The position numbers and the translations under genes are program-made. From positions 3,832,001-3,896,000 of the forward strand of contig OY727099.1 in the NCBI GenBank assembly GCA_963402885.1: DNA of 64,000 bases, given 5' to 3'. Shown here one piece after another: positions 278-28,653 of the stretch. The DNA comes from Antedon bifida. Its lineage: Eukaryota > Echinodermata > Crinoidea > Comatulida > Antedonidae. The notes under the pieces were generated by a model. The model saw only the letters and a program-made list of their open reading frames with translations. It searched no databases and was not told the origin of the DNA. Each line of letters starts with the position of its first letter. The stretch's first letter is position 1.

Positions 278-756
278 GATATATTGGTGGTGGACAGTAT
301 TCACACAGTGGGGGTGGCACAAACGCACTGTGTTTACCAGAGACACCTGAATATAACAACGGATTGATAGCAAGTGGGAATCAACGGTCTCTAGTATACG
401 GTGCTGAGATTCAATCTGATGATTACCTTCCCTGGAAAGACATATACCAAAATGACCCGTTATGTGCTGTATGTCTTGCACAAGGCCGATCAACAAGTCT
501 GATGATTCCAGCTAAACGTACGTGCCCACAGGGATGGACCAAGGAGTACGAAGGTTTACTGATGGGTAATAGACATGATCACCCAGGAGGACATGAATAC
601 CTTTGTGTCGATTTAAATCCTGAAGTTAGACCTGGTTCTGCACCAAATCATAACGGATTCTTGCTTTTTCCTGCCGTAGGTGTTTGTGGGTCTTCTTTAG
701 CTTGCCCACCCTACGTTCATCGCAATGAGTTACCATGCGTTGTATGTACATGGTAA
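278..756 (+). CDS. Short-chain collagen C4-like secreted protein, paralog A (last exon only)
   Basis: Only the terminal exon is in the window; upstream exons lie beyond the left edge. It opens after a TTTTATAG acceptor with phase 1, exactly as the last exons of the three downstream paralogs, and runs 479 bp to TAA. It encodes the Cys-rich C-terminal domain: GYIGGG, HSGGG, CLPETPEYNN, CAVCLAQGRST, CPQGWTKEYEG, LACPPY and the terminal CVVCTW, with nine cysteines in the shared places. This pattern is known from the globular C-terminal domain of sponge and invertebrate short-chain (spongin-like) collagen C4 proteins. Role inferred: secreted, disulfide-rich extracellular protein. A point of difference is HRNE where B, C and D have DNAE. 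Family call fairly sure; function unknown. Confidence 0.8.
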
Positions 757-3544
757 TTACAGTACAGTACATTGCCTAAAACGGAATTTGATTGGTTTAT
801 GTATAGTGATTGATCACTTAAACTTAAAGTTTTTTGTAATTATAATTTAAACCTGTTACGTAATCCGTTTACCACGGCATCTAACGAATAATGGAATAAT
901 ATATTGCATAACAGATGCTAGTCTGTTTGAGTTTCACTTTATTTTTATCATAATAATGTAGAGCTCTAAACATGTAATCTTATGGTTAAAAAAAAAATAA
1001 ACGCACTCCACCAATAACTTTCAAAATCGCGGAAATATATGTAATGTTATTGTATAGTGCGTCTTCTCTATCGCTTATTATGGAAATACTCTTTTTATAA
1101 TTGCGGCCTCTTTATCTTCACAAAATAACTATTTATTATTTTATGCAACGTTTCTTATAACGTAAATTGTAACTTTAAACAGGCCTCTGTTCTCAATACC
1201 AAAATGAAATGAAATGGTGAACATTTTTGATAATACACATTTGTCAGCAAAGCGTTATACAAGTAATAATAATAAATACTTTCCGTTGGGTTTTAATAGT
1301 TATTTCATGCAGAGCGTCCCTCTTTGTAAAACGACGATCGATGACCAACCAATGTAAATAATAGGGACTCTTAGATGTTCACGCTATTACGTCATTTTTA
1401 TGATATGCGCATGCACTAGGCGACTGATACGTCGACGGGCAAATGTGAGTGCTTGTTCAATCAGTGGCATTTCGACGTTCTCTCTCTCTGACATAGACGT
1501 ACCACGTGGACTTCATAACACTGCACTGCCCAGAATCTCGCGATGATTAATTTTATTAATTAAGGTTATGGCATGGGTGTTACCACTAGGACGCCATCCT
1601 TCATTCAGAAAATAAAGGATCTCGGCTAGGCATAAGCTATACAAACTTAGCCTGGCCTAAGCCCGTGTATTTCCACCGGCCCAGCGCGGTGGTGGAATAG
1701 CAACACGGATGAGCGCTACTATAGAGATTACCAAGTCAGATCACAAGGTCACTACGTCATACATTCACTGTCACGTCAACTTAAATGTCCACTTAATCTA
1801 AAAGTAAGTCTTAGTCTAAAATCTGTTGACGATAACCGGGTGGTTAAGGCAGGTGCGCCGTTTACCGTACCTAATGAGCCAACAATATCGGCATGGGTTA
1901 GACGCGGACTCACTCCTAGATCTGGTGGTGGAACAAGTCTTCTCAGATAAAGAATATAAACCGTGTACCAAGTTTGTCATGTGCACATTCGAGACGAGTA
2001 AGGGTTACCCCGGTAATCTGTTTCACAGCCTCTGTGGAATTACTGCCTATCTGATAGGACAGTGATTAAATACTATTGTTATTCCTTGAGCATATGTACC
2101 TAAAGACATTATTTATAACGATACCGTGTTTTGGGAAAATAAATAATTGTATTTGAATTAAAAAACGTAAGATCAACACTAGCAACTTTCGACGAACAAA
2201 GTTAATATTGCTTCCGTGAAATGCATCTTATAACGCATGCAAAGGTATACACGTTCGTCAAACTTAGTGCACAACTGAACGTGTCAATAACATCATTATA
2301 CTAATTTCTGTTGGTATCAAAATGCCATGTAGGCATATACACACACAAAAACATTAGCTAAGAGCAATGACGAATCTCAGTAAGCTTTTCTTCAAATAAT
2401 CATCCGAGATAGCGTACAAAACATGCGGTACCTAATAATTATAAGTAACTTTATAATCTATTCCTATTCATATAATCTCAAATGCAAGGCAATGCTCGAA
2501 TATAACGAGCGACCCGTATCAACTCTAAAGCAGCTTACACGATACCAGTAAACGAAATGTATGTAAATCTCTTGTATGCAAGTGTGTACTGTCTTTTCGT
2601 GAATCAAGTAAAGGTATAATGTGATTTTTTATTACACAAAATAGTTTTTGCATCTTAGAAATGGAAGAAGATTAGGAGAATCTAAGAATACGGTAATGGT
2701 AAATTAGATTTATGTCTGAGGGATAAAGTGAAGTCTGAAAGATTGATTAAAAAAATCGTAAGACCATTGTAGCTAATCCATAAATTATTTTATTTCAGGA
2801 TATTAGAACAATTGTAATAGTATTTTCCAAATAGTATAAATATCAATAAAGGTATAGATATTAACGTGTAAATACTCCATGTAAAACTAAATCTACCTTT
2901 GTGAAAATATTTTTGGAAAAAAAAGATCTTTTCATCATTAATTACTGGTCGAGAGAGTGGTCTATTCTATGATAGATGATAATGACATCTTTCGTGTACA
3001 TATTATAACAATTAGTAATATTATTGGTAATTACGTTTCCCTATCCTCTATTCCATACTTATAATGTTGAATATTTTCCTCACTACTCCTAAAATGAATA
3101 CGTATCATAGAGGCGTGCAAAGGTTTAACTTTCCTCAAACAATACATTTTATCCATACAGAACGTTTTAGTAATATAGTACAATTATCATTTTCCTTTTG
3201 CTTTTTTATGCATTATACACGAAACGTGTCTAATGATTAATTGAAGTAAAGACTACATAAGCCTTTGTTCAAACAAGTGTTTGATATGATACGATAAAAG
3301 CGTGCGTTACATAACGTACAAATGCTACGATTCATATAACTTAGAATAAGGTGTATGAATATAACTCAACCAAATCTCGTCACACACCCACTCTGCAATA
3401 TAAAGGACATAGCCTATCTTCAAAATACATTATTATAATAATAATAGTTCATTCTTATATAGAGCATATAAGCAAGCTCTCAATGCCCTGAACATTATTA
3501 CCCCAGTAATTTTTTTTTATCAAACACGTATGAAAACAGACTTC

Positions 3545-3740
3545 CATAATGCAGCTAGTAATCAGCGCAAAGTTGTGTCTTGATCTAACCGGGTACCCAT
3601 TTATACACCTGGGTAGAGAGAGGCAAACGTAAGTAAAGTATCTTGCCTACGGATACAAGCAATGCGGCGAGAGTTGGATTCGAACCTCGGTCTCACGATC
3701 AGTAGTCCAACGTCCAACACACTGCGCCACACGCCCTCAC
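3545..3740 (-). mobile_element. tRNA-derived SINE
   Basis: On the minus strand the head reads as a degenerate tRNA: an A-box-like TGGCGCAGTGTGTT is followed about 40 bases later by a B box GGTTCGAATCC. The head is followed by a body with GGCAAGATACTTTACTTAC and ACCCAGGTGTATAAATGGG, a layout typical of invertebrate SINEs. The tRNA part has no clean acceptor stem, so it is not a functional tRNA gene. The 3' limit is uncertain. Confidence 0.65.
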
Positions 3741-3934
3741 GATTTTCGGAAAGCCAGCTGTTTGGCAGACTGATTTAACTGTTCAAGAAATGCTAGAGTT
3801 GTGTATACATATTCAACTCAGAAGTCGTATACCTTAAAACCTAGAAAAGAATATTTTTGACACAAAAATGACTTCTAATCCATTCAATGTTGTAACTCTT
3901 TCAGTAGTATTGCTCTGCCAACAATGTAACAATT

Positions 3935-3997
3935 ACGCCCTCTATATCGTCACACAATAATGTTCTACTCACAACTTGTGAGAGGGCGTATGCTTAT
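3935..3997. repeat. Short foldback element, copy 1
   Basis: An ACGCCCTCT ... AGAGGGCGT inverted repeat brackets about 45 bases containing ATCGTCACACAA. Related copies sit between paralogs B and C (about 8160-8222) and between C and D (about 13,694-13,744), so it travels with the duplicated array or inserted repeatedly. Confidence 0.55.
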
Positions 3998-4860
3998 GCT
4001 ACAAACCTAACTAACGTAATACTTTTAATTTTAGCAAGTAATTTTTTTTTTAACCAAATGACCCATGAGACACGCAATCAAAATGAAAACTAAAACTATT
4101 CGATATTTTAGTGAAAATAACAAAAGGATTGAAGAATGTTTAGCCTATAGAAAAAAACAGGCGTAAGAAAGTCGTCACAAACTATACAGCAGTTTGGACT
4201 AACAAAGCAGACAAACTATAAATTACGTCAGCTTGTGACAATCTTTACACATCTGTTTAAAAAACAATTGTGTATCATACTAAGTCTATGTCCAATGGTG
4301 TATTTATCTTGTAATTGTGGCACGCGAATTGTATCACTAAAATCACGTATCCGTGTCGATGCATATTATAGTGAGCCCATATTATCTGCTTTACTGATGC
4401 CTATTTAAATATCTCTAAAAGCATCTGTTATATACTTTATAACAATTACAAACATAACAAAATCAAACATTGTGATGATATTGAAAATGTAAAATGTCAA
4501 AACATCACGTTACATATAAAAACGTCACGTATGTACGATACCAATTTTCCAGAAAACAATCCATCAATATCACACTTTTTGGAGATAATAAAATGTTCTA
4601 ATTGATTTTTTTTTTAAAGAAAAAAATTAAGAATGAGCTTACTTTCTAATAAAATATTATCTTATATTTAATTATTTTTATCAATTGTAATTTTCATATG
4701 CTTGAAATAAGCATGCAAAAACACGTCGACAAACACGCTAAACAGACAGAACGTGATGTACCATCCTTCAGTGTTTTAAAAATCAGTGTATAGTATACAA
4801 AACACCATTAGTTAAAACTACATATGGATTTGTAAACAGAAAAATCCGATATATACAGAC

Positions 4861-4868
4861 TATAAATA
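4861..4868 (+). promoter_or_regulatory. TATA box of paralog B
   Basis: TATAAATA lies 54 bp before the first ATG of paralog B. The same element in the same setting precedes paralog C, and a TATATAA precedes paralog D. A transcription start about 25-30 bp downstream would give a very short 5'UTR, as is common for highly expressed secreted-protein genes (inference). Confidence 0.6.
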
Positions 4869-4914
4869 ACGGGGATGTGTAACGATTTATTTCAAATTTA
4901 AAGAAGGCACATCA

Positions 4915-7760
4915 ATGTTAACCAAGATGAAGATCGTCAACTACGTCGCAACGTTTTCCTGTCTATTTTTTCTGAATCAGGCCGCAAAGGTAAGACACCG
5001 TAACTTTTCTAGAAAGAGTAGGCCTACCCAATCATTAATTAACCTAGAGGGAAGTTATCTAGAAGATAGTTGGTGTAAATCTAGTAAAAGCACTTGCCCC
5101 TTTATATAAAAAATTTTGACTGGTGTTTTTAATGAATATATCTCAAAGCGATAATGCAAGATAATATTGTCCCCATGATAAAAGTTGTTGTGTTTTTTTT
5201 GTTTCAATATAAATTTTTTATGCCATATAATAGTTATACACTTTGACCAACAATTTGATCGAAAAAACAATATTATTACCTAAAAAAAATATGTAATTTT
5301 TAAAAAAAATCAAATTGACTGGAAGTCAACAAGTTTTTGGTTGAAGTAACCGTTTATTTTGTCTTTTTATAAGTCAAAACATGGGGGTTTTTAAGTTAAA
5401 AGTGTGAAGTGGCCTATTCAAAGCCATTTTAGTCGCGTGCAACGCGACCTTACAGCTCACTATGTCGGTCGGTCGGTCGGCTGGTCGGTAAACACTAACT
5501 TGAGCACGCGACTGCAGCCATGTATATGTAAATTAATCTTCTTTTTCCGGTTTTGGGGGACAACATACATTTACCAAAGTGAAACGAATGTGACTATGCA
5601 TGTGAAATGGATATTGTGTTTCATCAAATGAAACTGATTACAATTAATCACTTTTTATTTGCTGAAATGTTTAGCTTTAAATTATAACACATTTAATCAA
5701 ATGAGAATGTCTTGAAGCTAAAGGTTGTGTTTTGTGAAGTTTTCCTACTTTAATCGAGTTTTCTCGAAGCGCGGTTTTTATCAAAAACTACGCGAAGCAG
5801 TTAGCCACTTCGTGGCGTCGTCACTATAGCGATATCTAACAGCACATAATTTTCGATGCGCGAGCGTTTTTGTCAATTATTGTTAATACCATGGAGGAAT
5901 GTTTAAGTTCTTAGATGATTAGCAAGTCAAATGAGCTAGCGATTAAACGTTTACTGTACCCAAAAAAAGCCAACAATATCGGCATGTTTTTAAGGCCTAC
6001 AGGTAGTTCTGGTGGTGAAAGTCTTCTCGGATAAGGACTATAAACCGTAGGTGAAGTGTACACAGTTTGCCCGTGTACACTTTCAAGAACCCAGTTTGAG
6101 CAGGTGGTTTACCTCGGTGAACTGGTTGACAAAAATACTTTGTGTCAGGGGGATTACCTACAGACATTCATACATACATACAATACAAACAAAAGGGTTC
6201 AAACCCACCGACCTTCTAAAAATGTTCATTATTTTAAAGGTTGATGATGATGACGATGCTGCCGACAATGTTGTAAATTACATATGGAACATACTCGGCG
6301 GTGGCGGTGATGATGTTGGTAAGATTTTAATGTATTTCATGGTTGGACAATGTATGTAAATATTCTAAAATATTATTATCTTAAACAGTAGGTACCACTT
6401 AAAAAATAACATGACAATTCACGAATACCAATATAGTTTAAAACTATAGCGTAATATTTAAAGTTATGTAGTTTAACTGAATATGGAATAAAATAAAGTA
6501 TTCTTTTTAAGAATATGTAATGATAAATATTATCATTATATTATAATTATATTATAATTATATTATAAAAATGCTCTGATCAATATTTATATTTTACAGT
6601 ATATCAAAAAAGTAAAACTTATATTAATTTGCATCATTTGTTTTTTAGTGGGGGATTTTTCCCCTCACTTTTCAACAGCAAAATCATTAAATTGTTCAAA
6701 TGAAATTCCTTTTAATACGTCCCCCACTATTAAAAACGGATCTGCGCCGTTGCGGCTATAATCGACTGCTTCCTTTAGCCTATTATTTATAAGCATAATA
6801 ATAATATATCATTTCTGAAACGTACAATGTTACTTTGGTACAGGGACCCATCCAGCAAACGACTGCAAACAAGAGTTTATGACGTGTGAAACAAGAAATG
6901 CTAGCGTTGTGTATACACACTGGGGTAGGAGTGACTGCACCCCAGACACGTCACACGTCGTCTATACTGGTGGGTAATTGCATGTAAATTATAATAATAA
7001 TAATCATTATTCATAAAATGAAGTACAATCAATTTAAAACTATCTCGAAGTTTCGGTTATTGTATTACAACATCGTTTGAGGTAAAGCTAGTAAAGTTTA
7101 GGCGAATATATCGCACAGCATAACAGGATTTTTAAATTACAGATAGAATCGACAGTCTTAATGCAAAATGACCGAAGTAAATAAACAGAATACATAATGC
7201 ATGTTTCTTTGAATGGCAATTTTAATTTAGCCTAGTAGTCATAAAGTTATAAGCAATCTTTCTATTATTCAATATTGTTTATAGGATATATTGGTGGTGG
7301 ACAGTATTCACATAGTGGGGGTGGCACAAATCCTTTGTGTTTACCAGAGACACCTGAATATAACAACGAATTGATAGCAAGTGGGACTCTTCGGTCTCTG
7401 GTATACGGTGCTGAAATTCAAGCTGATGATTACCTTCCCTGGAGTGACGTACACCAGAACGACCCATTATGCGCTGTGTGTCTTGCACAAGGCCGATCAA
7501 CAAGTATGATGATCCCAGCTAAACGTACGTGCCCACAAGGATGGACCAAGGAGTACGAAGGTTTACTGATGGGTAGTTATAGAACCCTTGCAGGACATGA
7601 CTATCTTTGTGTCGATTTAAGTCCTGAAGTTAGACCTGGTTCATCGCCAAACAAAAATGGTTTCTTGCTCTATCCCGCCGTGGGTGTTTGTGGGGTTTCG
7701 TTAGCCTGCCCACCCTACGTTGATAATGCTGAGTTACCGTGCGTTGTTTGTACATGGTAA
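4915..7760 (+). CDS. Short-chain collagen C4-like secreted protein, paralog B
   Basis: Four coding exons join in frame: 4915-4989, 6240-6318, 6844-6969 and 7285-7760, giving 251 residues. Residues 1-25 are a signal peptide (MKIVNY then a hydrophobic core). Residues 26-52 are a separate acidic exon with a DDDDDAADN run, NYIWNILGGGG and DD. Residues 53-94 carry three Cys, an N-glycosylation sequon (NAS) and YTHWGRSDC. Residues 95-251 are the C-terminal domain with nine Cys, including CLPETPEYNN, CAVCLAQGRST, CPQGWTKEYEG and CVVCTW. The YTHWGR and Cys patterns match the C-terminal domain of short-chain collagen C4-like proteins; no Gly-X-Y repeats are present. A second in-frame ATG four codons on (4927) corresponds to the only start in paralog D and may be the real start. 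Extracellular matrix, cuticle, mucus or defence roles are all possible; none is shown here. Confidence 0.85.
5157..5395. mobile_element. MITE-like element in intron 1 of paralog B
   Basis: The segment shares GTTATACACTTTGACCAA, GATCGAAAAAA and a GGTTGAAGTAACCGTTT-like motif with 29,858-30,080 and, in the other orientation, with 53,690-53,974, where the ends are clear inverted repeats (AAGATGTATTGTCCCCC). An ATATTGTCCCC end is visible at about 5163. It is also present at the matching place in paralog C but not seen in D. Confidence 0.6.
5431..5500. repeat. GTCGCGT hairpin plus GGTC tetranucleotide repeat
   Basis: A perfect short hairpin (GTCGCGT, GCA loop, ACGCGAC) is followed by CTCACTATGTC and repeats of GGTC. 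The same compound motif occurs at about 10,886 in paralog C and at about 23,276, so it is a dispersed family rather than a local microsatellite. Confidence 0.6.
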
Positions 7761-10303
7761 ATACATTAACGGTGCATCTAAAATGGCCTTTTTTCGGCTC
7801 AACTTCTAATATATTCGACTTGCAAGTACTGAGTGATCATTAAACCTTAATTCCCTTGGACCCTTATTGTAGACTTCTCACTAGAACCATAAATGGTTAT
7901 TTTATTAGGAAGTTTTTATCCTAAAGAACACGGGAATCATTTAAACAGGCAGTTATTTTTTTGTTTTAATAAACTAATTCCTTAGCATACCAGGCCAGAG
8001 TACCCTGTTTATGTCTTGTTCGTTAAAATATTTTTTTCTCAGTTGGGAAAAAAAACTCTTCTGCTATAACTAATCTCAAATTTCAAACAAATTCATAGTG
8101 CGCCCTCTTTATGGATTCGAAGCCATATCAAAACTCTACTATTTTTCAAAAGATGCAATATTTGCGCCCTCTTTATCGTCACACAAAAATTGTTCAATTT
8201 TGTGAAAATGTTGCGAGGGCGTTTATCAACGGAACACAATCAAAGCATTAGTATTTTTTCATGATCAAAGCAATAATTAGTATTTAATTTTAAAAATAAA
8301 CTTTTTTAATAACAAATATATTTGTTCATAAGAACCAATTCAAAAACTCATGAGGTAGGCAATCAAAAAATCTAACCTATTCGCTCTTGTGTAAAAACAA
8401 TAGAAGGATTGTGCAGTATTCGATTTGCACAGAACATTTTGTATATGGAAAAACAAGCTTATTGTAACTACGTAACTACTACCCAAAATGTAAAATTTGT
8501 GTCCGAGCGCATCGTCTAATTTCCACTACCACTACTTTTTGTTTTGATTTCAGAGTCCGTAAGCAGCTATATATAGTTTTATTACTCCATACTTCACATC
8601 TTAATTCGATAATTTACCAATTCATTTTTTATAATTAAAATGTTTTAATCTGCCGACTGATTGACATATTTAAACGAATATGTCCCTCTTATGTCACTTT
8701 CTAAGGCGCAACCTAGAATAATATTCACACAGCAAGTCCCATATCCTGTATTGCATTCGTTTTGTAGCTTACAGTATTACGACGTAAAGGAATACTTCGT
8801 GTATAACAAAGTCAATGGCCGTAAATAGTTCCGAATTGTATTCGTGACAATTTGCTTGTTTGTTTGTTTAATAATGTTTCAGGGGCCGGGAAGAGTGTGC
8901 TTTTATTATACTTAATCATGCCATGCGAATTATTATTAAGGCAGCCAAACCGTGCGGGGCACGGGTTACTGCTAGACCACAATTTAATTACAAAAGTAGC
9001 AAGTACGTAACAATCTCCCACACAAAACAAACTGAAAAAATATCAAAACCAGTGAAATAAAAATAAAATGTAAATGAATAAACTTAACAATTCGTGTTTC
9101 CGCAGCAATGTGTTTCATTTGATTTTTGTCCACCTGTTTTTATTTTCATATTAATACACGAAAACACCCAAAAAAATATAGTTTGCCATGTTCGTTAGTG
9201 TTTGCGCGCATCATCTAATTCACACAGTACAATTTTTCTTTAGCGTCTTTTATTTTCGTAAAGCCTGAACAGTCAAAAGTAAAGTTCCATATCCAGTCTT
9301 TCATTTTTAGCCTATATATTTCAAAGTGAAGGGATAGTGTACAACAAAATCTATGGCCGTAAATACAGTAGTTCCGAATTTTATTCGTGATACAATTTGT
9401 TTTTATTTTAATTTTTATCTTTTATCAGAGTGCGCTTTTATATAACCAGAAAATGAGGCAGAAAAAGACCGTGCAGAGCACGGGCTACTGCTAGAATTTT
9501 TAATTTTAGCAAGTACTGTCACCTTTTTTTACCAAATGACCCAGGAGACACGCAATCAAAATGAAAACTAAAACTATTTAAGAATGTTTCGACTATAGAA
9601 AAACAGATGTAAGAAAAGGCGTCTCAAACTATACAGCAGTTTGGACTAACAAAGCAGTCAAACTATAAATGACGTCAGCTTGTGACAATCTGTTTAAAAA
9701 ATAGTCAATGTGCACACTAACAATTGTTTATCATACTAAGTCTATGGTCATTGGTGTATTTCTCACTAAAATCACGTAAGTCACAGCTATCCGTGTCGAT
9801 GCATATTATAGTGAGCCCATATTATCTGCATTACTGATTGCCTATTTGACCAGTTGTCTTTGATAATATCTCTAAAGGCATCTGTTCTATACTTTATAAC
9901 AATTACAAACATAACAAAATCAAACGTTGTGATGATATTGTAAATTTAAATTGTCAAAACATCACGTTACATACAAAAACATACCAATTGTCCAGAAACA
10001 ATCCATCAATATCACACTTTTTGGAGATAATAAAATGTTCTAATTGATTTTTTTTTAAATGAAGCCAAGTAGGACCAAGTTAGTTTCTAACAAAATATTA
10101 TATTATGTTTAATTATTTTTATCAATTGTAATTTTCATATGCTTGAAACAAGCACGTAAAAACACGTCGACAAACATGCTAAACAGACAGAACGTGATGT
10201 ATCATTCATCAGTGTTTTAAAAATCAGTGTATAGTATACACAAAACACCATTAGTTAAAACTACATATGGACTTGTAAACAGAAAAATCCGATATATACA
10301 GAC
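7761..10303. other. Spacer between paralogs B and C, no gene recognised
   Basis: AT-rich spacer. An AATAAA near 7967 could serve paralog B. A local imperfect duplication is visible: about 8795-8860 and 9340-9400 share the words GGCCGTAAATA and AGTTCCGAATT, with a CACGGGCTACTGCTAGA-like motif downstream of each. From about 9490 the sequence becomes closely similar to that upstream of paralog B (about 4030 on), marking the left part of the duplicated unit. Confidence 0.6.
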
Positions 10304-10312
10304 TATAAATAG
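10304..10312 (+). promoter_or_regulatory. TATA box of paralog C
   Basis: TATAAATAG, 54 bp before the first ATG of paralog C, matching the element at paralog B. Confidence 0.6.
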
Positions 10313-10357
10313 CGTGGATGTGTAACGATTTATTTCAAATTTAAAGAAGGCACATCA

Positions 10358-13288
10358 ATGTTAACCAATATGAAGATCGTCAACTACATCGCAATGTTTT
10401 CCTGTCTATTTTTTCTGAATCAGGCCGCAAAGGTAAGACACAGTAACTTTTCTAGAAAGAGTAGGCCTACCCAATCATTAATTAACCTAGAGGGAAGTTA
10501 TCTAGAATATAGTTGGTGTAAATCTAGTAAAAGCACTTGCCCCTTTATATAAAAAATTTTGACTGGTGTTTTTAATGAATATATCTCAAAGCGATAATGC
10601 AAGATAATATTGTCCCCATGATAAAAGGGGACTTGTTTAAATGTTGTTTTTTTTTGTTTCAATATGAATTTTTTATGCCAAATAATAGTTATACACTTTG
10701 ACCAACAATTTGATCGAAAAAACAATATTATTACCTAAAAAAAATATGTAATTTAAAAAAAAAATCAAATTGACTGGAAGTCAACAAGGTTTTGGTTGAA
10801 GTAACCGTTTATTTTGTCTTTTTATAAGTCAAAACATGGGGGGTTTTAAGTTAAAAGTGTGAAGTGGCCTATTCAAAGCCATTTTAGTCGCGTGCAACGC
10901 GACCTTACAGCTCACTATGTCGGTCGGTCGGTCGGTCGGCTGGTCGGTAAACACTAACTTGAGCACGCGACTGCAGCCATGTATATGTAAATTAATCTTC
11001 TTTTTTCCGGTTTTGGGGGACAACATACATTTACCTAAGTGAAACGAATGTGACTATGCATGTGAAATGGATATTGTGTTTCATCAAATGAAACTGATTA
11101 GCCTTAATACAACTTAATTAATTAACAAGAAGATTACAATTAATCACTTTTTATTTGCTGAATTGTTTAGCTTTAAATTATAACACATTTAATCAAATGA
11201 GAATGTCTTGAAGCTAAAGGTTGTGTTTTGTGAAGTTTTCCTACTTTAATCGAGTTTTCTCGAAGCGCGGTTTTTATCAAAAACTACGCGAAGCAGTTAG
11301 CCACTTCGTGGCGTCGTCACTATAGCGATATCTAACAGCACATAATTTTCGATGCGCGAGCGTTTTTGTCAATTATTGTTAATACCATGGAGGAATGTTT
11401 AAGTTCTTAGATGATTAGCAAGTCAAATGAGCTAGCGATTAAACGTTTACTGTACCCAAAAAAAGCCAACAATATCGGCATGTTTTTAAGGCCTACAGGT
11501 AGTTCTGGTGGTGAAAGTCTTCTCGGATAAGGACTATAAACCGTAGGTGAAGTGTACACAGTTTGCCCGTGTACACTTTCAAGAACCCAGTTTGAGCAGG
11601 TGGTTTACCTCGGTGAACTGGTTGACAAAAATACTCTGTGTCAGGAGGATTATCTACAGACATACATACATACATACAATACAAACAAAAGGGTTCAAAC
11701 CCACCGACCTTCTAAAAATGTTCATTATTTTAAAGGGTGATGATGATGACGATGCAGCCGACAATGTTGTAAATTACATATGGAACATACTCGGCGGTGG
11801 CGGTGATGATGTTGGTAAGATTTTAATGTATTTCATTTTAAATATTCTAAAATATTATTATCTTAAACAGTAGGTACCACTTAAAAAATAACTTGACAAT
11901 TCACGAATACCAATATAGTTTAAAACTATAGCGTAATATTTAAAGTTATGTAGTTTAACTGAATATGGAATAAAATAAAGTATTCTTTTAAGAATATGTA
12001 ATGATAAATATTATCATTATATTATATATTATAATTATATTATAAAAATGCTCTGATCAATATTTATATTTTACAGTATATCAAAAAAGTAAAACTTATA
12101 TTAATTTGCATCTTTTTATTTTAGTGGGGGATTGTTCCCCTCACTTTTCAACAGCAAAATCATTAAATTGTTCAAATTAAATTCATTTTTATACGTCCCC
12201 CACTATTAAAAACGGATCTGCGCCGTTGCGGCTATGATCGACTGCTTCCTTTAGCCTATTATTTATAGGCCTAAGCATAATAATAATATATCATTTCTGA
12301 AACGTACAATGTTACTTTGGTACAGGGACCCATCCAGCAAACGACTGCAAACAAGAGTTTATGACGTGTGAAACAAGAAATTCTAGCGTTGTGTATACAC
12401 GCTGGGGCGGAAGTGACTGCACCCCAGACACGTCACACGTCGTCTACACTGGTGGGTAATTGCATTTAAATTATAATAATAATCATCATGATTCCTAAAA
12501 GGAAGTACAATCAATTTAAAACTATCTCGACGTTTCGGTTATTGTATTACAACATCGTTTGGAGTAAGGCTAGTAAAGTTTAGGCGAATATAAAGGACAG
12601 CATAACATGAGTTGTAAATTAAATATGGAAACGACAGGCTTAATACAAATGACGAAGTAAACAAATCATTTTTTTAAACAAAAAAGAATAGCTTAGGCCA
12701 GTCAGTGTATTATATAATACATAATGCATGTTTCTTTGAATGGCAATTTTAATTTAGCCTAGTAGTCATAAAGTTACAAGCAATCTTTCTATTATTCAAT
12801 ATTGTTTTATAGGATATATTGGTGGTGGAGACGGTTCGCATAGTGGTGGTGGCACAAATCCTTTGTGTTTACCAGAGACACCTGAATATAACAACGAATT
12901 GATAGCAAGTGGGAGATTTCGGTCTCTGGTATACGGTGCTGAAATTCAAGCTAATGATTACCTTCCCTGGAAAGACTTATACGAGAACGACCCGTTATGC
13001 GCTGTGTGTCTTGCACAAGGCCGATCAACAAGTCTGATGATTCCAGCTAAACGTACGTGCCCACAAGGATGGACCAAGGAGTACGAAGGTTTACTGATGG
13101 CTAATTATAGAACCCTTGCAGGACATGACTATCTTTGTGTCGATTCAAATCCTGAAGTTAGACCTGGTTCTGCACCAGACCTTAATGGTTTCTTGCTATA
13201 TCCCGCCGTGGGTGTTTGTGGGTCTTCGTTAGCCTGCCCACCCTACATTGATAATGCTGAGTTACCGTGCGTTGTTTGTACATGGTAA
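10358..13288 (+). CDS. Short-chain collagen C4-like secreted protein, paralog C
   Basis: Four exons (10,358-10,432; 11,736-11,814; 12,326-12,451; 12,813-13,288) give 251 residues with the same phases as paralog B (0, 1, 1). The signal peptide, acidic exon and Cys/Trp exon are nearly identical to B. Differences concentrate in the last exon: GGGDGSHSGGG for GGGQYSHSGGG, RFRSLVYGAEIQANDY, LYENDPLC, and APDLNGF. Exon 2 begins GDDDDDAADN where B has VDDDDDAADN. All twelve cysteines outside the signal peptide and the NAS sequon are kept, so the product should fold the same way. The introns also align with B along their length, showing that the whole unit was duplicated recently. Function as for B: secreted and Cys-rich, otherwise unknown. 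Confidence 0.85.
10600..10850. mobile_element. MITE-like element in intron 1 of paralog C
   Basis: Orthologous in position and sequence to the element in intron 1 of paralog B, with an extra short GGGGACTTGTTTAAATG segment at about 10,627. It was inserted before B and C duplicated. Confidence 0.6.
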
Positions 13289-14776
13289 ATACATTAACGG
13301 TGCATCTAAAACGGCCTTTCTTCGGCTCAACTTGTAATATATTCGACTTGCAAGTACTGAGTGATCATTAAACCTTTATTCCCTTGGACCCTTATTGTAA
13401 ACTTCTCACTAGAACCATAAATTGTTATTTTATTAGGAAGTTTTTGTCCTAAAGAACACGGGAATCATTTAGACAGGCAGTCATGTGTTTAATTGTTTGT
13501 TTTAATAAACTAATTCCTTAGAGCATACCAGGCCAGAGTATTGTGTATTGTTAGTTAAAATATTTTTTTTTCAGTTGTGAAAAAAAACTGATCTGCTATA
13601 ACTAATTTCAAATTTCAAACAAATGCATAGTGCGCCCTCTTTATGGATTCAAAGCCATATCAAAATTCTATTATTTTTCAAAGCTGCAATATTTGCGCCC
13701 TCTTTATCGTCACACAAAAATTGTTCACTTTTGTGAGGGCGTTTATTAACGGAACACAATCAGCGCATTAGTAAATGTTTTCATGATCAAACCAATAATT
13801 AGTATTTAATTTTAAAAATAAACTTTTTTTTAATAACAAATATAGTTGTTTATAAGCACCAATGCAAAAACTCATGAGGTAGGCAATCAAAAAATCTAAC
13901 CTATTCGCTCTTGCGTAAAAACAATAGAGGGATTGTGCAGTACTCAATTTGCACAGAACATTTTGTATATGGAAAAACAAGCTTATTGTAACTACGTCAC
14001 ACACTAGATCAATGTTAACAATGTGGCCATTCCATCCATGACATGAGCTGTACTGGTTCTCAAATGAGAATAAGTACACATCTGGTTGTCTCAACAAACA
14101 ATTCTTTAATGTGCAAACTGAAAAATGTGTACACCACTAAGTCTTTGGTTTATGTATTTATACAGTAAATTGATTGTGGTATGCAAACGTTAACCCTAAC
14201 ACTACGTAAGTCACAGAATTCGTGTCGATGAATATAATGATGAAGTCCAGCTGCTAACTGATTGTCTATTCGACTGGAATTTCTGTGACATTATTTTTGG
14301 AAGGTATAAAATGATCACACACATACTAATGCAAAACAACACAAATTTCCAATTATAAATTTTAGCAATTTTGTTTTATATATTATTTTATAAAGTGTAA
14401 TTATACTTAACGTTACAGTTAAAGTATTTTGATATAAATGTATTTAGATGTAGGCCATGACGTGTTATATTTCTTTCGTCAACACTATCGTAGTGTCCTG
14501 ATTATATAGTTCATAACGTGTGTTATAGCAGCTCTGGACTAGCCTACGTTCTAACAATTTATCATATGTTTAATTATTCTATTCCATCTTTTTGGGAATT
14601 GTATGTTTCATATCCTTGAAATATTACCGCGTAAATCATGTCAAACAATCCGTTCATAATTATCATGTTTTCTTCAGTGTTTTTAAAATCAATGTACAGT
14701 ATCCACAAAACACCATTAGTTGAAATCAATAACGACTACAAGTATTTGTTAAACAAAAACATAATTTCTACATCAG
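13289..14776. other. Spacer between paralogs C and D, no gene recognised
   Basis: The left half (to about 13,990) parallels the sequence after paralog B, including an AATAAA at about 13,504 and a foldback with GCGCCCTCT ends near 13,694. The right half leads into the promoter of D. Reading frames here are short and AT-rich. Confidence 0.6.
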
Positions 14777-14783
14777 TATATAA
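14777..14783 (+). promoter_or_regulatory. TATA-like box of paralog D
   Basis: TATATAA, about 72 bp before the ATG of paralog D. The following GACGTGTTACGATTT resembles the downstream GTGTAACGATTT of paralogs B and C, supporting a shared promoter ancestry. Confidence 0.5.
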
Positions 14784-14854
14784 CCTGGACGACGTGTTAC
14801 GATTTAAAGTAGGCCTATATCAAATCTAAAGAAGCCGCATCAATATTAACTGCC

Positions 14855-16884
14855 ATGAAGATCGTCAACTATATCACAGTTTTTGCCTCCTGTCTAATTG
14901 TCATGAATCAAGCAAAGGTAAGCTACAATTACTGTCTATGAAAACCTACCTCATTAACCCTAATCCTAACGTAATCTAGATGGGAGTTATCTAGATGGGT
15001 GTTATCTAGTAAGTACTTGTATGTCTATTAAAATTGTTAGTTTAAACTTAAAAGTTATGAAAAAAGTGCATATCTAATTTTAAATAACTTTAAATAAAAA
15101 GAGTTACTAGATTTACAAGTGATCAAAGGGGTAAAACAGTAAAATTCAAGAATACAATATACTATCCAATTAGGACCACTGAGGTTTTATAAGTTTATAA
15201 GTTTATAAGTAGTATTTGTATATAATATTTAATTGTTTTGATTGTCTTACTTATCTTGTTAATGTTTTGTAGAGGAACCCTATGTATCAAGCATTCCAGT
15301 TTAAGGTTTATCCTCTATGTCGTATTTTGGTGGGTTTTTTTTTTGTGGTTTTGAAATCTTGTGGTAATGTTCTGTGACATAGAAATAAATACTACAAACA
15401 AACATGGACACCACGAAGTAAACTGTGACTACAAACACTCGCTTGTGAAATGGATTTTTTTTACAAAGGTGAAAATATGTGACTACAGACACTATACACG
15501 TAGATTGGATTTAATACAACACTGTTAAGCCATGATACCATTTGATTAATTCAAAAATGTTAATCATCTTTTAATTTATAAATTTTAAAGCTTTAATGCG
15601 TACTTATGACAAATTTAATTTCATTAGAATTTCTTTCTTTTTTCACGAAACACGGTTTTTATCATCAAACATTACGCGGTGGGTTCACTATATTGATATC
15701 CTCAACGTATGGTGAGACATCATTTACTGTTGTTCTCGATATATTTTAATTTCATATCTTGTTTATATCGATCTTCCTATGAGAATTTTCATTATTTTAA
15801 GGGTGATGACGAAGTAGCCGACAATGTTGTAAATTACATTTGGAACATACTGGGTGGTGGTGGTGATGATGGTGAGATTTTCTTTTTCTCTTTCATTAAT
15901 ATGTTCTTATCTATTTTCTTACACAACAACAGCAACATCAGCAGAAGCAACAACAATAACAATGTGCCTAATAATAGCACATTTCTTGAATGTACAATGT
16001 TGGTTTCTTTATAGGGAATCTACCACCCAACGACTGCAAAGGAGAGTTTATGACGTGTGAAACAAGAAATGCTAGCGTTGTGTATACACACTGGGGTAGG
16101 ACTGACTGCACCCCAGACACGTCTGACGTCATATATACTGGTGAGTAAACTCTTTATATTACAGTATATAGTCTAATATAATTTGGAGAACTGTATATTC
16201 TATGTTATTACTTTAAAGATGAAAAATGGCGTATACATTTTGAAAATTAATGTTGTAACAATAGTGAGTGTCACACTTAAATGCGCATTATATTGGTCTG
16301 CAGTACCATACAAAAAAACATCAATTGACACCAACAATGCACCGATGAATATCTCGACAAATCTAAATAAAACAGTATGTAAAGCGATCGTTATTTTATT
16401 TGTAGGATATATCGCTGGTGGAAGCCATTTACATAGTGGAGGTGGTAAAAACCCACTGTGTTTACCAGAGTCGCCTGAATATAACAACGGGTTAATAGCA
16501 AGTGGCTCTCTTCGGTCTTTGGTATACGGTGCTGAATTTGAAACTAGTACTTACTCTCCTTTGGCTGGTTTACACGACAAAGATGCAGTATGCGCTGTGT
16601 GCCTTGCACAAGGCCGATCAACAAGTCTGATGATTCCAGCTAAACGTACGTGCCCACAAGGATGGACCAAGGAGTACGAAGGTTTATTAATGGGTGATTA
16701 TTACACTCATAAGGGAGGACATGAATACATTTGCATAGATTCAAACCCAGAAGTTAGACCTGGCTCCTCGCCAAACCATAACGGCTTCTTGCTTTATCCT
16801 GCCGTAGGTGTTTGTGGGTATTCGTTAGCATGTCCACCCTACGTAGATAATGCCGAGTTGCCATGTGTTGTATGCACATGGTAA
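14855..16884 (+). CDS. Short-chain collagen C4-like secreted protein, paralog D
   Basis: Four exons (14,855-14,917; 15,802-15,871; 16,015-16,140; 16,406-16,884) give 245 residues. The start is the ATG of MKIVNY; the more upstream ATG used in B and C is ATA here. Exon 2 is shorter (GDDEVADN for GDDDDDAADN) but keeps NVVNYIWNILGGGG. Exon 3 keeps FMTCETRNASVVYTHWGR and exon 4 all nine Cys. The middle of exon 4 is almost identical in DNA to the other paralogs while its flanks differ (ETSTYSPLAGLHDKDAV for the QADDYLPW region of B). Introns are shorter than in B and C and lack the MITE of intron 1. It is the most diverged of the four visible genes, and the last one; no further copy follows. Confidence 0.85.
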
Positions 16885-19432: not shown

Positions 19433-22400
19433 CTATTTAATTTCATATTTAATACGTGACTTCATGCTGGATCCTTTCATTTGTTCGTCATAATATTTCT
19501 CGAAAATTTCGTTTTGTTCAACAGTAAATAAGTTTTTCCAATCACCAACTTTTCCTATAAAATAATTGTATAATGAAATAATAAATAAAATACATCGTTT
19601 TTACTTGAAGATTTCTACAGTATATTAATATGAAGTCTTCTCTGTATGGTTTTGGTTGCTGGAAGAACATCAAAGAGATAGAAGGCATTCTTCACGTAGA
19701 GCACAATATTCAGCATAGACTTGCCCCAAGTCTGTATTCATTGTCTTTTTTGTGTTAAGGCCCATTTACACGATAACAATAGATATATAAGCATGCATTT
19801 TATTATATAAACCAAAGGAAATTAAAAGTTGAAGTTTCAAGTAGATACATATGAAACGCCATATGTGTCAAAATATTTATATTTTAAGGCCAAAACTCAG
19901 GAACCCAGACTATATTCAGCCTACCACTTGCCTATCTATTTTCTATGTGTCGTACTTAGAGAAAACTATTTCACATTACCTTTTCTTAGAATCTTGAATG
20001 GCAACTTCTTTCTCAGTGGCTCTGGAATTGAGCCGGTTGGTAGTAGACCATCAAACTTTTTGTTCATTCTAGAGAAAGAAGCAAGTTCCACGAGCTTATC
20101 AAGGTTTTCTCCAGAAGCTGGATGGCCTAGGAAATCAGCAACTTCTTCAATAACTGCCCTTATATCCTGCAAGATGAAATACACGTTTTTGCACTTAGTA
20201 ATTTACAACAGCATGAATATTATACACGTAATGAATGATAGTGAGAAGAATATTTCATAAGATGAAAGTAAGATTGACTTCAGACTCAGGTTGAATTGTG
20301 TAGTTACGTGTAGCGGCAATAGGGGCGCATATCATTTTCGGAGCGGATGGGGATGCGAATAATCTTCACCACAGCCGGCTTGAGACTTTTTTTTCCGGAA
20401 ATAAGATTTTTGTGTGTGTGTGTGTTCGTACAAAAAGGTTGGAAGTCCAGTATCGCCATTAGATATCACCCTTTCAGATGTGTATAGCTTTGTTTGTATA
20501 CCAGACATTAACAAAAAAATGTCTAGACTACAGTCACTATCAACATGATTTCATATGTATTTTTCTGTTTAACGGTATAATAAGAGACACGATTAAAACA
20601 ATACCTCTTTCATGTCTTCAAATGTTGTCAAGAAGAAGTTCTTGTCGTTGCGATGTTTCCAGTAATTCAAGTTGTAGTCGCACCACGATCGTCCTGGCAC
20701 TAGAAATAAATACAAATAATAATAATACAATCATATTAACCAATAGTGTTCAAAGTTTAGAAATAAAGGAAGGAAGGAAGGAAAGGAAAATAGGAATAGA
20801 ACAGATGTACATGAGCTTGTAATACTTACTGTCGTCTGACATAAATGACTGTAGAAAGCTTTCCCACGTATCCCATTCTTCACTGTAGCGGAAAGGTTGA
20901 GCAAAGTGATAATATGATACTGCGGAATCTTTTGGATTTCTCATAACAAACACAACCTAAAAATACAATATTGATGATGATGTAGTGTCGGTATAAATGT
21001 CGATTAATTGATTGATAAACTAAGGCCCAAAGCAAAATATGCTATTATTATATGCTGTATTAAACCAAAAATCACAGTAGGCCTACCCAACGAAATGTCC
21101 CCTATTTGTATGGGCTGTAGTGTTTTAACGTCTTATGTTCATCCTGGTGGTATAGGTTTCACGGGAAAGCACACCCTTAATATAGAACGTGAAAGTGTCC
21201 CAACCGAAGCGTAGGTTTGGGGCATTCAAAGTGTGTGGTGGTAAATTATTTAAGCGCCACTTTCAAACAGGCCTAAAAACATCGCGCCGGTCACTGGAGT
21301 ATTATAATTATACCTTTTGTTGTTGTAGGCTTTATGTTTTGCTGTTAACGAGTCATTTAAGAGAGACCCCAACTATTGGCAAACGGGGAGGGGGGTGGGC
21401 GGAAGATAGACTACATAATCATACACTAATGTGTCGTTTTACCCTAAATCAATGACTGATTAAGTAGGCCTAGATCAAAATGTCACTGAGCGAGACTAAT
21501 TAAATAATCCATATACATTTTACGTTGAGAAGGTTTTGTAAAACAGCTCACGGCTCGATCACTATAGTAGGCCTATCCTTTCCAGATATTCACAATGGTT
21601 AAAATATAATAAATAAGAAACTACCTTTGCTTTGCCTTCGAACACTTTCTCTGGGAGCATCTGTTCGTGAATATGGGTGACAATAACACGTGGATTATCA
21701 CGTGACATTTTAGCCATGTCTGCGACAGTGTTGAAGTATTCTAAGGGTTTTGGGTGTATCATAAACGTCTTCTCAGCCTTTTCATAGTCTGCATCGGCTA
21801 AAACACTTTTTACAATTTCAGTCATCCAATGAGTTCCTATGGTAAACAAACAAAATGTTTAAATACTATGTGGGATGTAAAGATCTGTAATTATACTTAT
21901 GCGTGATCGACTCTGTGTTCATCCTTCGCGCGTTCATGTGAACACAATGATCGACGGGTTTGAACATGTATGTAAGCCTATATTTGACTGACAATATTTG
22001 TGCTTCTTTAGAAAGGCACTTTATTTTTGCCATTGGGAGCTTAATTATCAAAATTTTCAGCCGATATAATATATTCATTCTATTAGGATTTACATTATCT
22101 CCAAAACAAATATTAAAGTTACAGATGCGGGTTGATATCTACAAACAATTGTCGATTCTTACTACAGTATATAAACTAAAGCAAAGAATAAAAAATGCGG
22201 GCTAGAAATACTATTAAAAAAAACAAAATTGATTTATGTGACTCTATCAATGACCTAATAGCTTACAGCATTTGTACAAACTGTACGGCATAATAATCCA
22301 TAAAGAAAATAAATACAAGATTGTAACACTTTTTTTCAAAGAACGATCAGCAATTGTTTAGGCTACTGTGTTTTTGACAGTACGGACGTTTTCCAAATAA

Positions 22401-25782: not shown

Positions 25783-28653
25783 CTAGTATTTGTATGGGCC
25801 TGGGTATCCTCCGTGTCCGTATCCCGGTTGTGGGTATCCATGTCCCTGTGAACATAAATCGCACAATAAATAATAGTTCAGCTTACAATTCGTAAAAAGA
25901 TGGCGTTTCATACATTATACTTATTTAATATTGTACAGTAATAATAAATGTACAGCCAAGTGATATCGTGTCTAAAAGTAATTGATCTTACTACATTCCA
26001 AATGTAATTAAATCGTACTTTGTTTAATATTAGTATGATGTGATTTTCTGGGGTGTTTCATTTTAGCGGGAAAGATCGACAGCATAATGGTATAACTGCA
26101 TGGGTTAAGTTCTTTATTTACAAAAGCCATTGACAACCTATCATTTCAAACATCTTGCAGGGAGATACCTCCCAGGAAAAACGTTGGACAAAATAATGCA
26201 GGCTTATTAATATTAGAAGAAAAGCATGCAAAAACGTACCGGTTGAATATGATAAATTACCGTCACGGTTGATTGATTGATTGATATTATTCGATATTCA
26301 TACACAAAAGTTAAAATATACAATGTACAAAAAGAATACCAGGATAACCCATTAAGTCGACAAATAAAATATAAACTTATTTCCAATAGGGTCCAATCCG
26401 TATTAACTGAAAAAGTGAGTGGTTGGCCCTAGTACAATATATCATTAAGTTGGACGCAGTAAAAATGGAAAAACAAGAAAATACATATAAGACAAGAACA
26501 CATCAAAAATCAATATTAAAAAATAACTTAATTAAACTGATATTCCAATCTGTTCATTATTAAAATATTCTTTAAGTTTTATTTTGAAGGTTGCATTATT
26601 TTGTATTGATTTGAGTGAATTGGGGAGCCTGTTCGGTTGACTCGACCGTAGAGGTAAATTTCATTGTAAAAAATTGAAAGTACTCACGCCAAATGGATCG
26701 ATGGCAACGCAGCATTCAGTAAAGAGTGAGATGATTATCAGGAGCAGCAGACTGACGAATATGAAGGTCAAGATGGTGTACATTTGGTCAATGTATTGCC
26801 AATCAGTGTCGTTTGCTGTTTGATCCAAGTAATCGTAAACATCATAGGTTACCAGAGCAATAGAAGCGCCAATGAGAACGAGTAAGAACAGGTTGGCTAT
26901 CATGGATATCCAAGCAACCTTTAATGATAGAAACGATAACATAATTTAAATGATTACACGTATCTTGTGGATGGCAAACTAAAATATTACATGATTAAAT
27001 CTATAAAAAAAAAACAGTTCTTAGGTTCTCGCAAAAGCTATAAAAGTTACGAGGTAATCTTGAAAGTGCCGAGGCAAGCTATGATATGACAGTGCCGATG
27101 CAAGGTTTGACAGAGTGCCGATGCGAGCTTTGTGACAGTGCCGATGCGAGCTTTGTGACAGTGCCGGTGCGAGCTGTGACAGTGCCGATGCGAGCTATGT
27201 CGGTACCGATTGCGAGCTATGACAGTACCGATTGCGAGCTATGACAGTACCGATTGCGAGCTATGACAGTACCGATTGCGAGCTATAGTACCGATTGCGA
27301 GCTATGACAGTACCGATTGCGAGCTATGACAGTACCGATTTCGAGCTATGACAGTCCCGATGCGAGCTATGACAGTGCCGATGCGAACTATGACAGTGTT
27401 GATGCGAGCTATGACAGTGCCGATGCGAACTATGACAGTGCCAATGCGAGCTATGACAGTGCCGATGCGAACTATGACAGTGCCGATGCGAGCTATGACA
27501 GTGCCGATGCGAGCTATGACAGTCCCGATGCGAACTATGACAGTGCCGATGCGAACTATGACAGTGCCGATGCGAGCTATGACAGTGCCGATGCGAGCTT
27601 TGACAGTACCAATTGCGAGCTAAGGCACAACAAAATGTTTAGTAAGCATACTTACAGATCGTTGACTTCTCTTTGCTGACATTTGTACACCAGAAATAAG
27701 GTTACCAACACCGACACCGGCGACCTAAAACCAAAATAAAATAAACCAACATTGCTTAAGCATAATTACGATATTATTAACAACGATCTGATTTGTTACT
27801 CGGTTCGACTTTCTTCAATTTCAGAAAACAAGTGAGTGAGCTACAGTTTAGAATAACACATCGCAAGCAAGGTTTTCCTTGGACGGTCAAAATCAAGAAT
27901 TGACGTAGGCCTACCCCTCTCTCCATCTATTACGCCCCTGTTAATTTACGTAGGTCTACCCCTCTCTCCATCTATTACGCCCCTGTTAATTTACGTAGGC
28001 CTACCCCTCTCTCCATCTATTACGCCCCTGTTCTTTAATCTGTTGAACAATCAACTTCTGACTTGTTTATATTACCATAGTGATGGTGATAATACTAACA
28101 TTCTAACAACTGATATGATTATAAAAAGTGGATTATAATGTTATGTCAACGATGACAATCTATGTCATAATTGAATAGGCCTAGTATACAGTAAGCACAA
28201 TAACTCAACAGTTCTTTTCACAAAATACGTGGTGTACCGCAAACTTTATATCAACACAATAATATTTATTACCAATAACCCAGCAAATGCAATTAATGGT
28301 GAGACTCCGTGATCAGCCGTCGATGTACTCAAGTACAGAATCATTTCCAGGCCTATGATGACAATAAGCATTCCCGACACCACCATGGTACCACCTGTAA
28401 ACAAGGTGAATGTTTGACGAATTGACATCTTCATCTTACTTCCTGAGTATGGTGGGGGTACAAAATTTCTGTAAAAAAAATGTATTAGGTTGACAATCAA
28501 ATCAAATCAAATACAATGAAAAAGTACAATAAAAAAGAAACAATGATCGTGGTATGACAGGCACATTCACTGATATTAATATATTATAATAAAATGTGCA
28601 GATATTTTCTCTTACCGTTCACGTGAAAACATTTCAATATGTTGATTCATCAT
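25783..28653 (-). CDS. Four-transmembrane protein with proline/glycine-rich tail, MS4A/CD20-like topology
   Basis: Five exons on the minus strand (28,653-28,616; 28,468-28,273; 27,724-27,656; 26,918-26,688; 25,845-25,783) join in frame to 198 residues. Four hydrophobic spans are visible at about residues 35-59, 68-92, 103-128 and 145-170, with a small loop between 1 and 2 and a larger acidic loop between 3 and 4 (DYLDQTANDTDWQ). The N-terminal cytosolic part has a PPPY motif (residues 17-20), a possible WW-domain ligand. The 20-residue tail is encoded by its own exon and is rich in GYP, GHG and PGP. Topology and tail resemble MS4A/TMEM176-like or other small tetraspan proteins, but the family cannot be fixed by eye. 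An alternative start is the next codon, also ATG. Function unknown; membrane protein. Confidence 0.75.
27040..27625. repeat. 21/22-bp minisatellite in intron 3 of the four-TM gene
   Basis: About 27 units of GACAGTGCCGATGCGAGCTAT (written here as GACAGTGCC + GATGCGAGCTAT). The left part has a 22-bp variant (GACAGTACC + GATTGCGAGCTAT) and the right part a 21-bp variant alternating GAGCTAT and GAACTAT. Because 21 is a multiple of three, long open frames appear (MTVPMRA and YDSADAS heptads), but the block lies between two well-supported exons and is most likely non-coding. Confidence 0.9.
27903..28031. repeat. 45-bp tandem repeat, three copies
   Basis: Units begin at 27,903, 27,948 and 27,993 with ACGTAGG(C/T)CTACCCCTC and differ by one or two bases, so the triplication is recent. 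It lies in intron 2 of the four-TM gene. Confidence 0.85.

Follow-up and report, generated by a model that had tools for sequence, protein, structure and literature searches.

The 64-kb stretch of the Antedon bifida genome analysed here (C12:3832001-3896000, henceforth the window) holds the last four genes of a tandem array of seven, which we interpret as a family of small, probably secreted proteins that carry a single cysteine-rich domain of the type found in spongin short-chain collagens (SSCC), remotely similar to the NC1 domain of collagen IV, and that have no triple helix. Such proteins could serve as a self-assembling module of matrix or mucus, and this is the reading we prefer, with about as much belief as doubt on our part. 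The original prediction for this DNA, a collagen-free domain of this type placed behind a signal-like exon and amplified in tandem, is thereby borne out; the family is wider than it foresaw, with at least 30 matches in the genome, a second collagen-free type and bacterial members.

The seven genes are complete and can be spliced within C12:3819955-3848884. Four paralogous domain exons had been predicted in the window, and all four are present at their predicted positions, on the plus strand and terminated by TAA. Each gene consists of four exons, namely a signal-like exon of 19-25 residues (its hydrophobic stretch judged by eye), an acidic exon in which Gly-containing residues come after the motif N-x-x-N-Y-I-W-N, and two exons for the ten-cysteine domain, of which exon 3 adds one or two extra cysteines and an N-x-S sequon to its share of the domain, and exon 4 is cysteine-rich and 158-159 residues long. 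Gene 4 contributes its exon 4 to the window (278..756, domain and stop), and its exons 1-3 lie directly left of the window edge (relative positions -1040..-984, -726..-654 and -158..-33, plus strand), with three further genes beyond them. Three complete genes had been expected within the window, and they are indeed there, also on the plus strand. Gene 5 comprises a 25-residue signal-peptide-like exon (4915..4989), the acidic, N..NYIWN and poly-Gly exon (6240..6318), an exon 3 with two extra cysteines, an N-glycosylation sequon and the opening part of the domain (VYTHWGR.DC; 6844..6969), and an exon 4 with the remaining domain and the stop (7285..7760), giving a protein of 251 residues. The corresponding exons lie at 10358..10432, 11736..11814, 12326..12451 and 12813..13288 in gene 6 (251 residues) and at 14855..14917, 15802..15871, 16015..16140 and 16406..16884 in gene 7 (245 residues). 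Across the array the predicted proteins measure 242-251 residues, all seven genes are open, all 21 introns are GT-AG, and every gene has a phase-1 intron within the domain, after a VYxG motif.

Genes 5 and 6 share a duplicated unit of ~5.5 kb that is 90-95% identical, introns included, and genes 3 and 7, which stand apart within the array, have in common a block of ~920 bp at 96%. At the DNA level, gene 4 shares 79-86% identity with the other six C12 copies over its exon-4 region, and because of this identity and of a pooled ratio of nonsynonymous to synonymous differences per site (pN/pS) of 0.40 the array cannot be put down to chance. By exon, pN/pS is 0.33, 0.51, 0.46 and 0.38 for exons 1 to 4, and the array is under purifying selection. 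In exon 4, dN/dS lies below 0.40 in 19 of the 21 gene pairs (the other two give 0.46 and 0.94), the highest value belonging to the youngest pair, genes 5 and 6, in which it is 0.75 over the coding sequence (CDS) as a whole. One might suspect a decaying array of pseudogenes, given that the middle copy of a related cluster at C16:0.47 Mb looks frameshifted and that one match on C10 is partial, but with seven of seven C12 genes open, their splice sites intact and the pooled ratio at 0.40, we find this extremely improbable.

It had also been claimed that a short acidic, poly-Gly exon stands in the place of the Gly-X-Y repeats, and this agrees with what we find, since no such repeats came to light in the window or the array. 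The six frames of the 64-kb window contain no run of five or more triplets when Gly is barred at X and Y, and neither the window nor the 33.3-kb array (63 bases unread) contains a run of six or more under a looser rule. Neither the short Gly-X-Y stretch of spongin short-chain collagens nor the long triple helix of collagen IV was found in the window or the C12 array. One frame in L059 turned out to be a poly-Gly simple repeat and was rejected as Gly-X-Y. Three paralogs in the same genome do carry Gly-X-Y exons, so one could argue that equivalent exons were overlooked here and that the genes are ordinary short-chain collagens. We rejected missed collagen exons on the strength of the six-frame scans; moreover, the signal, acidic and domain exons join in frame without them, and the introns between exons 2 and 3 span just 143-525 nt. 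That explanation is hardly credible, though for most C10 genes the check reached only ~1.5 kb of flank.

The genome search (315.6 Mb on 27 contigs, with all copy counts being lower bounds) gave at least 30 exon-4 matches on five contigs, or ~29 genes: seven on C12, three on C11, two clusters on C10 (eight, one of them partial, at 25.32-25.38 Mb and five at 26.43-26.50 Mb), three on C15 that we read as two genes, and, on C16, one at 3.24 Mb and three at 0.47 Mb. Exon 3 yielded 23 matches at E <=10, some very weak, of which the seven on C12 adjoin exon 4. Three types can be told apart: collagen-bearing genes (three), probably membrane-anchored genes (six) and the collagen-free lineage of the window (seven on C12 and up to 13 on C10). 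The collagen-bearing genes, in which exons with Gly-X-Y precede the domain on its strand, are the two on C15 and the one at C16:3.24 Mb. Exon 4 of gene 7 is 48% identical to C15:19.097 Mb and 42% identical to C16:3.24 Mb, which upholds the predicted relationship of the domain to short-chain collagens, and both of the collagen-bearing genes that were read have the phase-1 intron inside the domain. Beyond these three genes, Gly-X-Y was not found in the regions read on C11 (40 kb), C15 (40 kb) and C16 (30 kb each around 3.24 and 0.47 Mb), nor in the flank of ~1.5 kb read for most C10 genes, whose 5' ends are mostly unread.

Each of the three C11 genes is preceded by a frame in which a hydrophobic helix leads into I-D-H-L-T-R-N-E, and each of the three C16 genes at 0.47 Mb by a frame with a different hydrophobic helix that is conserved among the three; the two kinds of frame look alike by eye. 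These six genes, each preceded by a frame that looks like a type-II transmembrane segment (C11:9.165-9.178 Mb and C16:0.466-0.475 Mb; L039-L042, L050-L052), would form the second collagen-free type, probably anchored in the membrane, to judge from the placement and strand of the frames and from their conservation among the copies of each cluster. We word this cautiously because a splice-phase search did not find the exon linking the transmembrane-like exon to the domain and because one C16 copy, the middle one (C16:469992-470506, L037), appears frameshifted. On C10, acidic-WN exons adjoin four of the 13 matches in the sequence read (L016, L017, L018, L027). Two of the C10 copies, L020 at 26.48 Mb and L021 at 25.36 Mb, lie in 3.4-kb stretches that are 97.5% identical, inverted and 1.1 Mb apart, which may reflect a recent duplication or a matter of assembly. 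On the reverse strand of L017, from ~394, ~120 codons of an Asp/His-rich repeat, probably a microsatellite, lie upstream of the C10 copy.

Trees were built from 25 domains drawn from 30 exon-4 matches in this single animal species, with L020 and L021 as one row and with L023 (no exon 3) and the partial L030, L036, L037 and L038 left out. When four or five bacterial domains (see below) were added, every architecture formed one group, the label 'acidic' being assigned by kinship to those C10 rows with no adjoining acidic exon in the sequence read. The architecture labels require three changes on these trees, the minimum possible, against means of 10.4 and 11.2 after shuffling. Support in the trees with bacteria is 100/99 for the membrane group, 86-87/86-87 for the collagen-bearing group and only 73-75/74-75 for the acidic group; without bacteria, the acidic group reaches 96/95 and the collagen pair 91/85. 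The two collagen-bearing rows are long-branched and their pairing may be false. The C12 genes are interspersed among those of C10, and the window array is therefore most simply seen as a copy of the C10 lineage.

By its sequence, the array domain is that of the spongin short-chain collagens. Its ten cysteine columns are invariant or nearly so over 14 member domains, and its two halves match each other (hhalign probability 96, E 2e-9; 14 of the 15 rows of profile A6, those longer than 150 residues, were used), which suggests an internal duplication such as that of NC1. A profile of 14 of the 25 domains (A1), when compared with the collagen IV NC1 pair of the same genome (C10:7.97 and 8.05 Mb), gave an hhalign probability of 86.4 (E 4.7e-6) and aligned in register at CAVC...CP.GW...G; with bacterial members added, the probability was 86.2 over 41 columns, and the second half of the domain matched the second half of NC1 with a probability of 74. 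Profile A6, made of ten animal and five bacterial domains, found collagen IV NC1 in five of its six matches among all sequences of the PDB (best E 0.026). In a Foldseek search with the model of the L017 domain, NC1 chains filled ranks 1-17 of 22 matches. Finally, Fidler 2017 (PMC5395295), in the part available to us, counts seven cysteines common to spongins and collagen IV NC1 and three that are the spongins' own. This evidence is weak but agrees with itself, with Fidler 2017 and with Aouacheria 2006 as cited there, and the domain is likely a remote relative of collagen IV NC1.

A number of observations weigh against this picture, and we gather them here. None of 27 domains, two of which come from bacteria, has the HSQ motif; a Pfam scan of 14 members returned no C4 match (PF01413), its only hits being to two unrelated families, each in a single member (E 0.13-0.15). 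The 14-domain profile aligned to NC1 over just 32 columns, the other three half-versus-half comparisons with NC1 gave probabilities of ~2 or less (2 for first against first), and the animal-only profile matched a single PDB chain, that of the Viking NC1 (E 2.1); the single-sequence PDB search gave no match. The L017 model reached a pLDDT (predicted local distance difference test) of 54.9 and the other four of five models 28.6-34.3 (exon-3 fragments were misaligned and were omitted from the folded alignment; exon 4 folded alone gave 33.8, and its model was not searched). The Foldseek matches had a best E of 0.12, a probability of 0.33 and TM-scores <=0.30, with none at E 0.001, and because the L017 model is weak they may mean little. 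According to the part of Fidler 2017 (PMC5395295) seen, spongins do not have the domain-swapping region of NC1, so that NC1-like trimers are not assured. In the proteins themselves, gene 4 has S in place of W in exon 2 (S-N for WN), and the signal peptides were judged by eye. The weak profile and structure scores, together with the missing HSQ and Pfam C4 match, could indicate a separate fold that resembles collagen IV only through a common association with Gly-X-Y. We consider this rather improbable, as separate searches each put NC1 first, the two-fold repeat is common to the domain and NC1, and seven cysteines are shared by the account cited above.

The way these proteins may work can be pictured as follows. 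The signal-like exon would direct the protein out of the cell, where the ten cysteines would form five disulfides in a two-lobed domain, and the domain might self-associate as collagen IV NC1 does, producing compact oligomers rather than fibres. The acidic-WN-Gly part would be a charged, possibly cation-binding linker that replaces the collagen stem, and the oligomers would act as cross-linking units of an extracellular gel, be it mucus, cuticle or matrix. We propose oligomer assembly because of the NC1 kinship and because the bacterial domain sits at the end of a stem, and a role in mucus or matrix because of what is reported, in the parts of the papers accessible to us, on related genes in Nematostella, Exaiptasia and Mytilus. 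Nematostella spongin-like proteins are found mostly in neuroglandular cells, except for one of four; in Exaiptasia, the adhesive pedal disc shows raised levels of two 'short-chain collagen C4' genes; and Mytilus tissue lists include related genes (literature drawn upon: PMC5395295, PMC12549020, PMC6626399, PMC5560861, PMC5867623, PMC13093298, PMC4581086, PMC6824150, PMC11270918, PMC7058181).

A different role is conceivable, in which the domain recognises ligands from microbes or the environment and the soluble acidic and membrane-anchored forms together make up an expanded set of receptors for recognition and defence. The many paralogs in tandem clusters, the separate clade with a type-II-like transmembrane exon upstream and the elevated dN/dS of genes 5 and 6 would suit such a family, and one paper on the bivalve defensome includes 'Short-chain collagen C4', though, in the part seen, under a Structural/ECM (extracellular matrix) heading. 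The low exon-4 dN/dS in nearly all gene pairs (19 of 21) argues against it, as does the fact that Pfam shows no known lectin or immune domain, and we judge it unlikely, if worth keeping in mind.

Full-length relatives of the domain, likewise collagen-free, also occur in bacteria. One narrow pattern was run against a set of genomes from 84,980 bacterial and archaeal species and matched five times; two of the matches are full-domain relatives, in Candidatus Marithrix (49%; Gammaproteobacteria, Thiotrichales according to NCBI) and in an Eisenbacteria metagenome-assembled genome (MAG; 42%). The Marithrix gene is intronless and encodes 253 residues, which include a signal-like start and a short stretch resembling a helix; a CobQ-type gene lies to its left and, to its right, one small gene followed by a histidine phosphatase gene. 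Its GC at third codon positions (GC3) is 0.21 against 0.23 for the neighbouring CobQ-type gene, and the Eisenbacteria gene has 68% GC within a locus of 70%. Within the order of Marithrix the gene is present in three of 42 genomes (Marithrix itself, G440 at 72% and G441 at 70%), and G440 carries a second copy that is divergent and shorter (33%). The next downstream genes of Marithrix and G440 are related (BLASTP E 2e-18) and encode a small protein whose start lies near a TWG motif; that of G441 has, by eye, only a similar start. Contamination is argued against by the several genomes, the bacterial neighbours (the Marithrix and the Eisenbacteria gene both lie among genes of bacterial type) and the base composition.

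In wider samples the gene was found in one of 369 genomes of the class, which is Marithrix itself, and, of 47 genomes in the phylum to which the Eisenbacteria MAG belongs, in that MAG alone; a divergent query matched two of 398 genomes in a phylum sample, Marithrix again and G015, whose match (29%, E 9e-4) was taken as chance, its frame being an inositol monophosphatase (Pfam E 1e-47). Viral contigs gave nine and seven pattern matches, none of them a relative, and the plasmids and phages searched gave no match to the domain. The bacterial SSCC-type proteins (L061 1788-2549, L066 1498-2277, L067 1495-2247, L062 ~2001-2531, L068 1021-1887) carry the domain at the C-terminus, where it follows a signal-like start and a further stretch, which in most of them has a helical look by eye; neither L061 nor L062 matches a Pfam family, and L068 has only weak matches to unrelated families. 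In the trees a branch with support of 99/96 (four bacterial rows) or 95/97 (five rows) separates the bacterial from the animal domains. The patchy bacterial spread argues for transfer, in either direction. A more far-reaching possibility, to which we give only a slim chance, is that the SSCC/NC1-like domain is an older extracellular tip module, collagen-free in bacteria (on helical or other stems) and animals and transferred between them, that was secondarily joined to Gly-X-Y to give rise to short-chain collagens and collagen IV.

The window also contains, elsewhere, a sulfotransferase fragment on the minus strand (19966-20202; Pfam PF00685, E 1.1e-5) and two open frames on the plus strand, one of 123 residues with YDSADAN/YDSADAS-like repeats (27308-27679) and one of 129 residues with PPFLSSL-like repeats (47630-48019). 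The genome as a whole, with its collagen IV and its numerous introns, is that of an animal; its mitochondrial COX1 and ND1 frames use TGA for Trp and have AGR where many invertebrates have Ser.

How the family compares with known systems can be put briefly. With spongin short-chain collagens the array shares the C-terminal domain (those of this genome's collagen-bearing paralogs being 42-48% identical to them) with its ten conserved cysteines and no HSQ, and it differs in having the acidic-WN-Gly exon where those have a collagen stretch; the phase-1 domain intron, common to the array and the collagen-bearing paralogs, is a feature of this genome outside the published definition of SSCC. With collagen IV NC1 (Pfam C4) it shares the two-fold repeat, the CxxC...CP.GW...G core and a weak profile match, whereas the Pfam C4 match, HSQ and the long triple helix are missing. 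The stand-alone NC1 genes of ctenophores, already described in the part of Fidler 2017 (PMC5395295) seen, likewise combine a signal peptide and a domain with no collagen, but there are two of them and no large array, and they retain the second HSQ motif, which the array domains do not have. Finally, the C-terminal domain of Cthrc1, as described in the accessible part of Leclere 2020, is a collagen-associated tip that also occurs collagen-free and in bacterial metagenomes; its fold is C1q-like by the same account, and the likeness is one of description only.

As for novelty, the suggestion that the family had escaped description holds in part. A family of SSCC-domain proteins with a wide spread among invertebrates is already on record (Fidler 2017, PMC5395295, citing Aouacheria 2006, in the part seen), while among the matches listed in the literature searched, from which subscription papers largely fall outside, we found no description of a collagen-free SSCC form or of bacterial relatives. 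For annotation, the label 'short-chain collagen C4' may cover proteins without collagen. Collagen IV and a short-chain variant are regarded as founding components of animal tissue (Fidler 2017, PMC5395295, in the part seen), and a helix-free animal clade alongside helix-free bacterial domains makes it possible to address directly the role of the domain on its own, and the question of whether domain or helix came first. Should the domain prove to be the older module, the collagen-free arrays of this crinoid would show how that module acts alone.

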